Shown: positions 3,826 through 60,960 of the stretch, one piece after another | How positions within the stretch are numbered: the first letter of the stretch is position 1 | Layout: each line of letters opens with the position of its first letter | Source: Candidatus Altimarinota bacterium | GTDB taxonomy: Bacteria > Patescibacteriota > Gracilibacteria > UBA4473 | Reading direction: 5' to 3' | Assembly (NCBI GenBank): GCA_021734785.1 | Contig: JAIPIF010000002.1 | Location: forward strand, 62,001-126,000 | Length of the DNA stretch: 64,000 nt | Notes under the pieces: model-generated | Told to the model about the DNA's origin: nothing | What the model saw: the letters and a program-made list of their open reading frames with translations, nothing else | Database searches by the model: none | Position numbers and translations under genes: made by a program

Positions 3826-3887
3826 ATTACAAATGACGAATTACAGATGGGAAAATCCCCCCGTCCCGCTTTGAAAAAGGGGGTGGA
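3826..3887. repeat. Dispersed 62-bp repeat, copy A
   Basis: This 62-base stretch recurs at 4224-4285 with one visible mismatch. It opens with ATTACAAATGACGAATTACA and ends in a hairpin formed by CCCGCTTTGAAAAAGGGGG. A related copy lies at 60298-60360, and its hairpin part is also found inside elp3 at 33489-33507. Confidence 0.85.
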
Positions 3888-3895
3888 AGATTGTT

Positions 3896-4353
3896 TCGCT
3901 TCGCTCGCAATGACGAGGGAATAACACCCCCCAGCCCCCTCTTAGTCTAAGAGGGGGAGATTCCGCCGGAGATGGAATGGGGGTGATATTTTCCCTGAGT
4001 TCGGATTTTAGACAGGTGTCCTTTTTTGCCGTCAAAAAAGGACGAAAAAACCGCCGTCCGGATGCTCGTCGCCACTCACAGCACACAAAAAAATTCTGTT
4101 TCGCGACAACTCGCCCCGCCTTGGCGGGGACTCAAACACGTCGCTCCACAACGCATTTTTTTGCTCTGTGAAATGGCTCCTGCGCAGGGACGGAAAAAAG
4201 GGAAGAACAATTACAGATTACAAATTACAAATGACGAATTACAGATGGGAAAATCCCCCCGTCCCCCTTTGAAAAAGGGGGTGGAGTTTTGAAGAAGAAA
4301 AAGAAAAAATTGGAGGGGCAAGATATATCTTGCCCGTACTCAAAAAGAAAAAA
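3896..4353. other. Gene-free repeat region upstream of the secY operon end
   Basis: No convincing coding frame is seen here. It holds an inverted repeat at 3935-3957 (CCCCCTCTTAG paired with CTAAGAGGGGG), a stretch rich in CGCTTCGCTCGC-type words, the second copy of the 62-base repeat (4224-4285) and a 20-base palindrome near 4316-4335 (GGGCAAGA/TCTTGCCC). Confidence 0.6.
4224..4285. repeat. Dispersed 62-bp repeat, copy B
   Basis: Nearly identical to 3826-3887. The terminal hairpin reads CCCCCTTTGAAAAAGGGGG. It is preceded by a partial internal duplication of ACAGATTACAAATTACAAAT. Confidence 0.85.
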
Positions 4354-32826: not shown

Positions 32827-32883
32827 TTTTGATAAATTATTTCGCGGGTACTTTTGCAGAAAAGCAAAAAAAAGTCAACCCTT

Positions 32884-32909
32884 TGCAAAACTTTTTTTTT
32901 TCGTACGCT
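32884..32909 (+). promoter_or_regulatory. Leaderless promoter of elp3
   Basis: TACGCT (32904-32909) ends 6 bases before GTG 32916; a TTTGCA/TTGCAA hexamer lies 15-16 bases further upstream. Confidence 0.5.
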
Positions 32910-32915
32910 CTCCCC

Positions 32916-35060
32916 GTGAAAAAGCGCACGAAGTTTTGCATTCATCAGCAGGTCAAGGTTCCTGAACAAGTCGAGCAGTTCTTGCAGGAACTGATTTCTG
33001 TGCCTCCGACAGACACCGCCGCGCTCGAAAAACATAAACGAGCGTTTTCTGCCCGAGAGAAATGCGATCCGATTCTCAATCGGGATTTGATCTCCGTGGC
33101 TCGGGCGCAGCAGATTTCCCTTCCTCCCAAACTCGCTGCCCTCCTCCAAAAACGGGCCGTCCGGACGATATCCGGGGTGACGCCGATTGGGATTTTGACC
33201 AAACCGTTTCCCTGTCCGGGACGCTGTGTGTACTGCCCGACTGAGGTGCGTATGCCCAAGTCGTATCTTTCCTCGCAGCCGGCAGCGGCGCGGGCCTTGC
33301 GCAATAAATTTCACCCCTTTCGCCAGGTTGCCAATCGCATTACTGCGGTGGAAGAGTCAGGGCATCCGGTCTCCAAGCTGGAAGTCATCGTGATGGGGGG
33401 CACCTGGAGTGCACACACGCCGCGGTATCAGAGCTGGTACGTCAAGAATATTTTTGATGCGGCGAATTCAAGTGAAAAATCCCCCAAACCCCCTTTGAAA
33501 AAGGGGGCTTTTAGTTCTTTTTATGGAGAGAGGCCGCTGCCATACAATCCGAAGCTGAAAGAGCGAGCACGAGAGGGGAGAAACAATCCCACTCCTGCGG
33601 AAAAGGAGCTTTGGTTTGGAGTTTTTCAAAAAAAACAGTTTCAAAAACTTCGTTTTTTACGGCAAAAGCCGATTGATAATTTTATTATTGATTTTTATTG
33701 TCCAGAATTAATGCTTGCCATCGAAGTCGATGGAGATTCTCATGGTTTTCAGGAGGCGTATGATCAAAAACGAACGGAAATCTTGGAAGGATATGGCATC
33801 TTGCTTCTTCGATATACAAATAATGAAGTTCTTTCAAATTTGGAGGGGGTGTACGCGGACCTAGAAAAAAAAATACAACAGAGAAAAAAAGAACTCCCCT
33901 TCTCAAGGGGAGATGTCCTGCAGAGCAGGACAGAGGGGTTTTTTGTGCGCTCCAAAACACTCGCCGAATCCCAAAAACAAAACGAAACCGCCGACCGTCG
34001 AGTGATCGGATTGACGCTGGAGACCCGTCCGGACTGGATCACCGAGGAGGAGCTGATTCGCATGCGCCGGTACGGATGCACACGGATCGAAATCGGCGTG
34101 CAGACCCTGGATGATGATATTCAGAAATTGACAAAACGAGGGCACAAGCGCGTACACGTAGCACGGGCAATGAAATTGATGCGGGATTTTGGATTCAAAA
34201 TCTGCTGGCACCTGATGCCGGGACTCCCCGGATCGACGCTTGAAAAAGATTTGGAAATGATGCAGGAAGTGTGGACCAACCCAGACTTTCGTCCCGACTT
34301 CATCAAAATCTATCCCTGTCAGGTTTTGCCAAACTCTGAACTCGCTCACTGGTGGAAAGACGGAAAATTTATCCCCCTTTCGGACGAGGCACTGATGGAA
34401 TTGCTTTTGAAATGGAAAAAGACAGTCCCCGAGTACGCTCGAATCATGCGATTGATGCGGGATATCCCGGTGGGAGATGTTTTGGCGGGAGTGCGATTTT
34501 CCAATCTGCGGCAAATTTTAAAGACGCAACCCCACAAGATTCAGCAGCTGCTGGGACCCCAAAAGTTTCAGGAACTTTTTCCCCGTGGCCACGTGTGGCC
34601 GTGCCGGTGTGTGCGCTGTCGGGAAGTGGGATTCCAAGATTTGGCTCTCTCCTCCCGGGCAGAAAAACCCGTTCTTGTGCGTCGTGAATACGATGCCAGC
34701 GGTGGGACGGAGGTATTTCTCTCCTGTGAATCTCCGGACAAAAAAGTACTGTACGCCCTGTTGCGCCTGCGGAAGCCTTCATCAGACTTTCATCCAAAAG
34801 AGTTTTCGTCTGTTTTAAAGGACGCGGCACTCGTCCGAGAGGTTCATTCGTACGGGGCAGAGATTTCCGTGGGTGATGCGGCAGGCGTGGGGCAGCATCG
34901 GGGGCTTGGGCGACAGCTCTTGGCAGAAGCCGAACGGATTGCTCGCGAGGAATGGGGGCTTGGGCGAATGACGATCATTGCCGGGGTCGGCACACGGGAC
35001 TACTACCGAAAGTTTGGCTATCAGTTGCGATCGACGTACATGACGAAAAAATTGAAATGA
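32916..35060 (+). CDS. elp3: Elp3-type radical SAM / acetyltransferase with an inserted DUF559 domain
   Basis: 714 residues, about 155 more than usual. Radical SAM centre PCPGRCVYCPTE (C100, C104, C107), then VIVMGGTWSAHTPRYQ. After IFDAANSS (about residue 186) comes a foreign block to about residue 344, and the Elp3 sequence resumes at KTLAESQKQNETADRRVIGL and LETRPDWITEEE. The GNAT domain is intact at the end (GQHRGLGRQLLAEAE, YYRKFGYQLRS). Elp3 modifies U34 of tRNAs. The insert is described separately. Start set at GTG 32916 by the promoter and the MKKRTKFC-like N-terminus. It overlaps the next gene by ATGA. Confidence 0.9.
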   Translation: MKKRTKFCIHQQVKVPEQVEQFLQELISVPPTDTAALEKHKRAFSAREKCDPILNRDLISVARAQQISLPPKLAALLQKRAVRTISGVTPIGILTKPFPCPGRCVYCPTEVRMPKSYLSSQPAAARALRNKFHPFRQVANRITAVEESGHPVSKLEVIVMGGTWSAHTPRYQSWYVKNIFDAANSSEKSPKPPLKKGAFSSFYGERPLPYNPKLKERAREGRNNPTPAEKELWFGVFQKKQFQKLRFLRQKPIDNFIIDFYCPELMLAIEVDGDSHGFQEAYDQKRTEILEGYGILLLRYTNNEVLSNLEGVYADLEKKIQQRKKELPFSRGDVLQSRTEGFFVRSKTLAESQKQNETADRRVIGLTLETRPDWITEEELIRMRRYGCTRIEIGVQTLDDDIQKLTKRGHKRVHVARAMKLMRDFGFKICWHLMPGLPGSTLEKDLEMMQEVWTNPDFRPDFIKIYPCQVLPNSELAHWWKDGKFIPLSDEALMELLLKWKKTVPEYARIMRLMRDIPVGDVLAGVRFSNLRQILKTQPHKIQQLLGPQKFQELFPRGHVWPCRCVRCREVGFQDLALSSRAEKPVLVRREYDASGGTEVFLSCESPDKKVLYALLRLRKPSSDFHPKEFSSVLKDAALVREVHSYGAEISVGDAAGVGQHRGLGRQLLAEAERIAREEWGLGRMTIIAGVGTRDYYRKFGYQLRSTYMTKKLK
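33470..33950 (+). mobile_element. In-frame DUF559 (Vsr-like nuclease) insertion in elp3
   Basis: The block encodes LPYNPKLKERAREGRNNP, TPAEKELWFGVFQKKQFQKL, RQKPIDNFIIDFYCPELM, LAIEVDGDSHG and LLLRYTNNEVLSNLEGV, a whole DUF559 domain with the Asp of DFYC and the E-x-D of EVDG, the likely PD-(D/E)XK catalytic residues. The left edge carries the hairpin CCCCCTTTGAAAAAGGGGG (33489-33507); the right edge carries two hairpins (33894-33912, CTCCCCTT/AAGGGGAG; 33915-33931, GTCCTG/CAGGAC). No intein splicing residues are seen. The block keeps the elp3 frame. Confidence 0.85.
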
Positions 35061-39590: not shown

Positions 39591-40135
39591 CGTCGCTGGG
39601 TGATTTCACGCGTGGCTCTCCCTTGACAGGCTCGGGATCGCACTGCGTTTCATCACCGCTCCTTCTTCCTCGTCCCGCCAAGGCGGGACTTCGCTTGGAA
39701 TTTTTTTCGCTTGCTCCATCTCACCGACTCTCCCTATCCCGACACGTCGGGACGGGGACTCCAAATTTTATCACCAGTCTTTTTTCTCTGTCCCGTGAGG
39801 ACGGGGCTTCGCTCGAGGTTTTTGATTGTGCGGCGAGAAAAATCCGTTCCACCAGAGCGGGACTCGAAATTTTTTTGGAAAAGTTCGGAATGACAAGTTT
39901 TTTTAAAACGAAAACAACGTGTTTTCCCTCGGGGGTCCCTCGACGGGTTCGGGATCGCATTGGATTTCATCACCGCTTCTCATTTCGCACAAAACCTGCG
40001 GTTTTGTTTGGGTTTTTATTCTCCTAAAAACCTCCGAGCCCCGCCAAAGCGGAGCGAGGAAAGAGGAGGAGCCGGCAAACTGGTGGAGTTTTTTTGTGAA
40101 ACAAAAAACGGAACTCGTGCAGCCGAGCTCCGACG
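39591..40135. repeat. Repeat-rich spacer between two tRNA-Arg genes
   Basis: No coding frame is convincing. Two related blocks occur, each with a GGGATCGCA...TTTCATCACCGCT core (about 39620-39660 and 39950-39985). It also carries TCCCGACACGTCGGGA at 39737-39752, a hairpin of CCCGCC/GGCGGG near 39674-39690 and GGGCTTCGCTCGAGGTTTTT-type words. Similar blocks lie at 43900-44230, 55700-55730 and 60750-60860. Confidence 0.7.
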
Positions 40136-43819: not shown

Positions 43820-44240
43820 TTAAAAAATTTGCTCAGTGCAAAAAGCAGAATCAAAAAAACACCAAAAAAGTTTGACAGCCAATTTAACTTTGTTAAAAAC
43901 CTCCCGCTCTGGAAATGCAGGAGGGGCCGTGGGCCCCTCCCGCCAGAGGCACTTCGTCGGTGAGGACTGCGCTGGCTTCATTTTTGCTGCGCAAAAATTT
44001 CACTTGCTCCGTCTCACCTCCTCCCCCCACGAAATCTGCGATTTCGCAGGGACCCCAATTTTCTTTTTATCCGTGGTTCGTTCCGCTTTCAGCAAAACTC
44101 ACACTGGATTTCATCACCGCTCCTCCTCCCCCCATCCCGACACGTCGGGACGGGGACCCCAACTTCTTTTCATCCGTGGCTCGTCCCGATTCGTTGGGGA
44201 GACTTCGCTCGGAGTTTTTCCCTTGTATTTTTTGAATTTT
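43820..44240. repeat. Repeat-rich region without genes
   Basis: No convincing frame. It carries CTTGCTCCGTCTCACCTCCTCC (about 44005), TTTCATCACCGCTCCTCCTCC (44109-44130) and TCCCGACACGTCGGGA (44135-44150), the same words as in the tRNA-Arg spacer at 39591-40135. Confidence 0.65.
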
Positions 44241-55660: not shown

Positions 55661-55709
55661 AAATTCTTTTGAGATCCCGCATGCGCGGGATACATTCCAT
55701 CAGCCGCTC

Positions 55710-55725
55710 TCCCGACACGTCGGGA
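55710..55725. repeat. TCCCGACACGTCGGGA repeat
   Basis: Identical 16-base hairpin words stand at 39737-39752, 44135-44150 and 60830-60845. Here it lies just past the gap stop codon. Confidence 0.8.
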
Positions 55726-60296: not shown

Positions 60297-60657
60297 GCAA
60301 TTACAGATTCCAAATAATAAATGGGAAAATCCCCCCGTCCCCCTTTGAAAAAGGGGGGGAAGTTTTGAAGCAGAGAAGCAGGGACGTTTTGAAGAAAAAA
60401 AGCACAAAACAAATGTTCAAAAATTGAGATTTGAGATCTTCAAAGAAATTTGCCCGCCTTCGTCAAGACTTCGGCGAGGCACTCATACTTGCAGCCACTC
60501 ACGCGTTCGTGGGCAAGCATGGTGGTGCACGAGAGAGGACCTTCCCCCGCCTGGGGCGGGGTCAGGACTTCGTATGAACCTACGAGGTTCAAGCCCCTGT
60601 GACTGCGCAACAGAAAACATCGTCTGATCCACAAGGGATCACACGATATTTTTTCTC
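60297..60657. repeat. Repeat-rich region with a tRNA-Leu 3'-end duplicate
   Basis: 60298-60360 is a copy of the dispersed repeat of 3826-3887, ending CCCCCTTTGAAAAAGGGGG. At 60522-60540 stands GTGGTGCACGAGAGAGGAC, the same 19 bases as at the 3' end of the tRNA-Leu gene (60658-60676). No coding frame is convincing. Confidence 0.65.
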
Positions 60658-60749: not shown

Positions 60750-60960
60750 TCGTCGTTGCTCGCCTGCGCGCGTTTCGTTCTCCGCTTGCGCGGAGTACTT
60801 CACTGGCTTGGCGGCTCCTCCTCTCTCCATCCCGACACGTCGGGACGGGGGCCCCAAGAGAAACGTTCTGTTTGCTCGGAGGGTCTTCGAGAAGAAATCC
60901 GAAAAGAGCGCGGCGATTGTATTTTTCTCGGGAAATTTGTCAACGTCCTTCGCATTCAAA
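60750..60960. other. Gene-free region beside tRNA-Leu
   Basis: Contains CTCCGCTTGCGCGGAG hairpin (60780-60795) and TCCCGACACGTCGGGA (60830-60845), then plain AT-rich sequence. No gene seen. Confidence 0.5.

Follow-up and report, generated by a model that had tools for sequence, protein, structure and literature searches.

The coding sequence of an intact DUF559 nuclease, bordered by palindromic sequences, interrupts elp3 without a break of the reading frame in the window (the whole stretch of 64,000 nucleotides that was analysed), and it is probably one copy of a mobile element that is built of palindromic ends around this single gene and lives in frame within host genes. The original prediction of a nuclease-bearing palindromic element spreading by in-frame insertion is thus supported, and extended, by relatives with empty loops, by further host genes and by paired copies; that the nuclease itself drives the spread is inferred, no DNA transaction having been observed.

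The elp3 frame with its nested block is open from 32829 to 35060 on the plus strand (743 aa in the list of open reading frames), with a GTG at 32916 as the probable true start and residues 1-37 disordered in the structural model. Pfam finds in this frame DUF559, Radical_SAM, Radical_SAM_C and a GNAT stretch, and the CPGRCVYC cysteines are kept, as had been claimed for the frame, the radical SAM cysteines and the GNAT domain. Comparison with the 16 empty loops of family genomes places the whole nested element, an in-frame insert with approximate outer limits, at 33474-33945 (plus strand); the insert covers residues 216-373, flanked by DAANSS and RSKTLAE, and its 158 residues agree with the earlier estimate of about 157. 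The nuclease domain, of the EDxHD/Vsr-like type, occupies residues 242-349 (33552-33875, plus strand; PF04480, E 1.1e-26, profile positions 2-108 of 109), with about 75 nt on each side between it and the edge of the block. Its DFYC and EVDG motifs are intact and the invariant residues of DUF559 are retained, so that the presence of a complete DUF559 domain within an open elp3 frame was borne out. Third-position GC content of the nuclease block is 0.33 against 0.60 for Elp3, and that of a second nuclease of the same genome, nested in UvrC, is 0.45 against 0.65 for its host; these low values relative to the host genes indicate a foreign origin for both nucleases.

An AlphaFold model of the full Elp3 protein (pLDDT 86.9) keeps the Elp3 part confident. 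Residues 240-355 fold in it with confidence into a domain of their own, most of which exceeds pLDDT 90 in place, and the palindrome-encoded residues 218-235 and 357-371 are disordered linkers with pLDDT below 50. The block would therefore be a separate domain on flexible linkers, as the structural check that had been proposed for it was meant to decide. Modelled alone, the block reaches pLDDT 90, and a Foldseek search of the PDB with this model retrieved 3HRL (E 4.4e-6), the homing endonuclease I-Bth0305I (3R3P, E 4.6e-4) and, more weakly, 1vsr. Sequence profiles pointed to the same relatives (3HRL, E 5e-31; I-Bth0305I, E 1.2e-4). Matches to toxin B subunits in the PDB, at E 0.07 or worse, were set aside as chance.

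A close-up view of the edges shows that the block opens in a dispersed hairpin, AAAATCCCCCAAACCCCCTTTGAAAAAGGGGG, and closes with hairpins and GGGGTTTTTT. The left end (33476-33507, plus strand) comprises an outer arm, AAAATCCCCC, and the hairpin CCCCCTTT-GAA-AAAGGGGG, and belongs to a family with 33 copies in the 1.06-Mb genome, where the reversed pattern has none; three further copies without a nuclease lie within the window, at 3852-3883, 4250-4281 and 60326-60357, all on the plus strand. At the right end we find an inner hairpin, CCCCTT-CTC-AAGGGG (33896-33910), an extra stem read from the sequence, TGTCCTGC-AGA-GCAGGACA (33914-33932), and the outer arm GGGGTTTTTT (33935-33944), all on the plus strand, the last of which complements the left outer arm in a weak inverted repeat. 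The right-hand hairpin differs in sequence from the left one. As regards its own inverted repeats, the elp3 copy has only the weak outer match AAAAATCCCC/AAAAAACCCC and, when tested without gaps, scores no differently from swapped controls, which means that this particular copy may be immobile. Most dispersed palindromes in genome G000 carry no nuclease. The window also has four copies of another dispersed palindrome, around ATCCCGACACGTCGGGA (39717-39767, 44115-44165, 55707-55725 and 60810-60860).

Comparison with relatives revealed that the Elp3 loop is empty (0-50 aa) in 16 of the family genomes from which elp3 could be recovered, and that within the family the block is otherwise present in one congener only (G001, contig JABGQW010000008.1, isolate co234_bin65). 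An old Elp3 domain fixed in all relatives, which would have refuted the mobile-element reading, is thereby ruled out. The nuclease domains in elp3 of the two congeners are 58% identical; since both carry the block, they may at this locus have inherited it vertically from a single old insertion. In the elp3 of another genome (G059), the same loop houses a domain of some 268 aa that its motifs mark as a HAD-like hydrolase, and the loop accordingly accepts whole domains. The only other DUF559 domain in the genome of the window lies in frame inside UvrC, again flanked by hairpins, and the UvrC of the congener is empty of it. At the second UvrC loop, which holds DUF559 in G002, GNAT-like domains were observed in three genomes (G008, G010 and G019) and a nucleotidyltransferase-like one in G001 (L136, L140, L142 and L143, assigned from motifs without a profile search). 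Palindrome-only insertions, also in frame, were observed at UvrC site A of G002 (GSPLTKGAGGI, L137) and in the N-terminal barrel of RibE in G242 (L111), as expected for nuclease-less copies.

A scan of 353 genomes of the class, 170 of which contain DUF559, located the unit of nuclease plus palindromes in frame inside at least a dozen core genes besides elp3, with hosts confirmed by Pfam or by conserved motifs. These include RibE (18 cases), RsmG (5), CofE, MurD, a glycosyltransferase and UvrC (2 each, those in UvrC at two sites), together with single cases in RibD, Sua5, TsaB, MiaB, IleRS, ValRS, LeuRS and a Nudix protein. The search suggested for other genes with such a block was therefore positive in many genomes and many core genes, and the recurrence of nesting in other genes of the same genome and of other genomes makes its occurrence in elp3 more than chance. 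The IleRS of G009 (L096) carries, besides DUF559, a His_Phos_1 domain at residues 653-793. In the family of 74 genomes where riboflavin synthase RibE is affected, one loop is occupied in 18 and empty in about 46, often in mixture within a genus. DUF559 had been described as normally free-standing, and this stands in so far as there are many free copies with the same inverted-repeat ends, but the nested state is recurrent; the shared ends make nesting one of two lifestyles of the same unit. Elsewhere in the phylum, among the copies listed, DUF559 is nearly always free-standing. Reading frames from other phyla gave single nested cases in RecG of a Rickettsiales metagenome-assembled genome (MAG) and in an N6-methylase of a MAG labelled Brevinema, as well as a fusion to the N-terminus of a QueG-like protein in Cytophagales. 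DUF559 is the sole gene inside the units examined. TGA is a sense codon in several families of the class, and two other genomes of the family correspond to named Candidatus Gracilibacteria MAGs (L039 = L201, L053 = L203), from which a Gracilibacteria/Peregrinibacteria-type Patescibacterium is inferred as the source of the window.

The limits of the element are best seen where two copies occur in a single genome. Two free copies in G241 (L166 and L167), with 93% identity, share the stretch from GACCTCACCCCC to GGGGGGTGAGGTC; their left flanks are unrelated, while their right flanks keep matching in another shared repeat, so that on the right it is chiefly the inverted repeat that defines the limit. 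In G192, the match between the copies in RibE and RsmG (L101 and L155), 78% identical, is confined to the element. The inverted-repeat ends delimit both pairs, and flank-to-flank inverted repeats with a score of at least 14 were found at 56% of 174 loci compared with 0.7% of distant controls (Fisher 1e-33), so that terminal inverted repeats delimiting the copies, a trait of transposable elements, are present for the family. These distant-flank controls, together with the reversed-pattern control mentioned above, rule out chance hairpins. Moreover, the end pairs proper to each element outscored all six swapped pairs at 106 of the 174 loci. A free DUF559 copy on contig C31 of G213 (L071), whose inverted repeats are some 99 bp long and almost perfect, is likely a recent insertion. 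Target-site duplications were sought in UvrC and RibE and none could be resolved, the host loops being too variable.

With regard to descent, 33 nested elements of the RibE family group together in one clade (SH-aLRT 98), separate from the free copies of that family. On the element tree of this clade the RibE label requires 10 changes compared with 11.1 when shuffled, and the sister RibE hosts G195/G035 and G229/G233 carry elements that are not sisters. In the congeners G212 and G213 (L100 and L114), the element has a dS of 1.4 and the host flanks one of 0.34-0.39. A single RibE insertion inherited vertically is ruled out by the discordance between the element tree and the hosts. The RibE data fit a repeated re-invasion of a preferred loop, and the comparison of sequences shows that copies of the element have moved between genes.

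The nuclease is under purifying selection, with dN/dS values of 0.06-0.22 in the pairs that were not saturated. The 30 codons that precede the domain include an ATG in 117 of 130 free copies but in only 12 of 43 nested ones (p 1.5e-14); the block of the window has no ATG there, and one TTG lies in its hairpin. Since nested copies mostly lack a start codon of their own, the nested nuclease is probably translated solely within the host protein. On a genomic scale, genomes with more DUF559 genes contain more CCCCT-N4..14-AGGGG palindromes (rho 0.63 over 353 genomes), also within families (0.81, 0.78 and 0.73 in f1, f10 and f14), and genomes without DUF559 have palindromes at control level (medians of 4 and 3). 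The pooled families nearly devoid of DUF559 showed no correlation between palindromes and DUF559. Families were taken as units in these correlations, and kinship was not fully corrected for.

Altogether, the element is proposed to consist of C-rich/G-rich hairpin ends, with outer inverted repeats and inner hairpins, around a single gene for a DUF559 nuclease of the EDxHD/Vsr-like type, and it would insert both between and inside genes. In-frame copies in variable surface loops may survive because the hairpin ends would be read as short, stop-free and flexible linkers and because the nuclease is predicted to fold on its own. By inference, the host enzyme would keep working without RNA or protein splicing, the nuclease would be produced solely within the host fusion, and the activity of both partners in the fusion is likewise inferred. 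The nuclease is further thought to cut or nick target or hairpin DNA and so to drive its own spread, the copying being done by repair, and it might mobilise nuclease-less palindromes in trans. A broader proposal, whose chances seem to us evenly balanced, is that EDxHD/DUF559 nucleases mobilise their own palindromic ends in many bacterial phyla, the nuclease-less palindromes being their MITEs, and that in Gracilibacteria-type genomes one lineage has become adapted to an unspliced, in-frame life within essential proteins, entering the same loops time and again (those of RibE and RsmG, and perhaps that of Elp3), which would constitute a new class of mobile element. Such a selfish nuclease element would persist in essential genes without splicing, with palindromes as ready-made protein linkers. 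It points to a possible function for a nuclease family whose annotation is still unknown, to a candidate driver of the G/C-run palindromes scattered through many bacterial genomes, and to a natural way in which core enzymes could acquire inserted domains. In the RibE family, the mixture of occupied and empty loops within genera makes homing-like re-invasion directly testable.

The main rival to this proposal is that the palindromic ends are moved by another agent, either a transposase or repair and template switching at hairpins, with DUF559 as a passenger such as a mismatch-repair, defence or addiction nuclease. We consider this possible but unlikely. No cleavage data exist for DUF559, the nuclease-less palindromes predominate in G000, and a Caulobacter DUF559 protein has been discussed as a VSP-type repair endonuclease (PMC12907096), all of which a passenger would accommodate; it would not account so readily for a palindrome excess that is largely restricted to genomes with DUF559 and grows with its number, also within families, for ends that match better within an element than when swapped between elements, for the absence of any other gene from the units examined, or for a fold that resembles a homing endonuclease. 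It is less probable still that Elp3 gained the domain once and kept it for a task connected with Elp3, such as the binding of nucleic acids, with vertical descent in the genus. The occupation of the same loop in both congeners, purifying selection on the fused frame and the HAD-like domain that the same loop accepts in G059 would all agree with it, but the same block, with ends of the same kind, also interrupts many genes of unrelated function, its GC3 is foreign, and the RibE element and host trees disagree.

A spliced intervening sequence, whether an intein or a group I or II intron with an EDxHD homing endonuclease, is suggested by the resemblance to I-Bth0305I and by the known occurrence of EDxHD endonucleases in group I introns, yet it appears extremely improbable. 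No Rfam intron family was detected in 33100-34300 at E≤1, only the short stretches of about 75 nt lie outside the nuclease domain, and the frame runs unbroken through the hairpins. The Cys/Ser...His-Asn splice motifs are absent, the junctions ANSS/EKSPK and FFV/RSKTL lack splice residues, Pfam recognises only DUF559 in the block, and the model shows disordered linkers at the junctions with no intein fold. Both kinds of spliced element were discarded for lack of an Rfam intron, of splice residues at the junctions and of anything other than disordered linkers there; the initial report of missing intein motifs was confirmed at the level of junction residues, Pfam and model. Finally, an assembly or binning artefact could have joined an unrelated contig at hairpin repeats, given that each join has hairpins beside it and that further copies of the left hairpin exist in the genome. 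Such a misjoin is scarcely conceivable in view of the same arrangement at the same locus in the independent congener assembly (JABGQW010000008.1), the analogous in-frame insertions in dozens of genomes and the frame kept across both joins.

As for known systems, a text search, thin on subscription journals and bioRxiv preprints, found no literature that ties DUF559 to inverted repeats, palindromic elements or in-frame insertion. In-frame palindromic insertion, EDxHD homing endonucleases and DUF559 as a Vsr-like protein are each already known; their combination was not found in the literature searched, with the same thin coverage of subscription journals. The mobile element proposed here resembles REP/RAYT systems (as far as general knowledge of RAYTs goes) and MITEs in having dispersed hairpins, one enzyme gene with flanking hairpins of the same kind, and nuclease-less copies that outnumber the nuclease-bearing ones. 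The REP/RAYT enzyme, however, is an HUH (Y1) transposase, whereas the enzyme here is an EDxHD/Vsr-like nuclease and many copies are coding and in frame; Pfam found no HUH (Y1) transposase in the elp3 block, DUF559 being the sole encoded domain. EDxHD homing endonucleases are known in introns. With one of them, I-Bth0305I (PDB 3R3P), the nuclease shares kinship in fold and sequence, as well as a pattern in which different alleles come to occupy one site again and again, but there is no intron or intein, the ends are palindromic inverted repeats, and the element moves between different genes and not solely at an allelic site. Stand-alone nucleases such as 3HRL and Caulobacter VsrA, a Vsr-like DUF559 protein discussed as a mismatch-repair endonuclease (PMC12907096), belong to the same Pfam family; unlike the mobile nested unit, they are described as free-standing and as immobile or repair proteins. 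The palindromic elements of Rickettsia, which encode no enzyme, interrupt unrelated metabolic genes without shifting the frame and apparently without loss of host function (PMC10969869), and have in common with the present element a palindromic unit in frame in unrelated host genes. They measure about 150 bp and lack an enzyme gene, in contrast to a unit of about 470 bp with a conserved nuclease that also occurs free-standing (the Rickettsia consensus sequences were not compared). In this regard, the RecG of the Rickettsiales MAG (L234) contains, besides its nested DUF559, many palindrome-like peptides of the TPPVKGGKGG type, a possible link to the Rickettsia palindromic elements.
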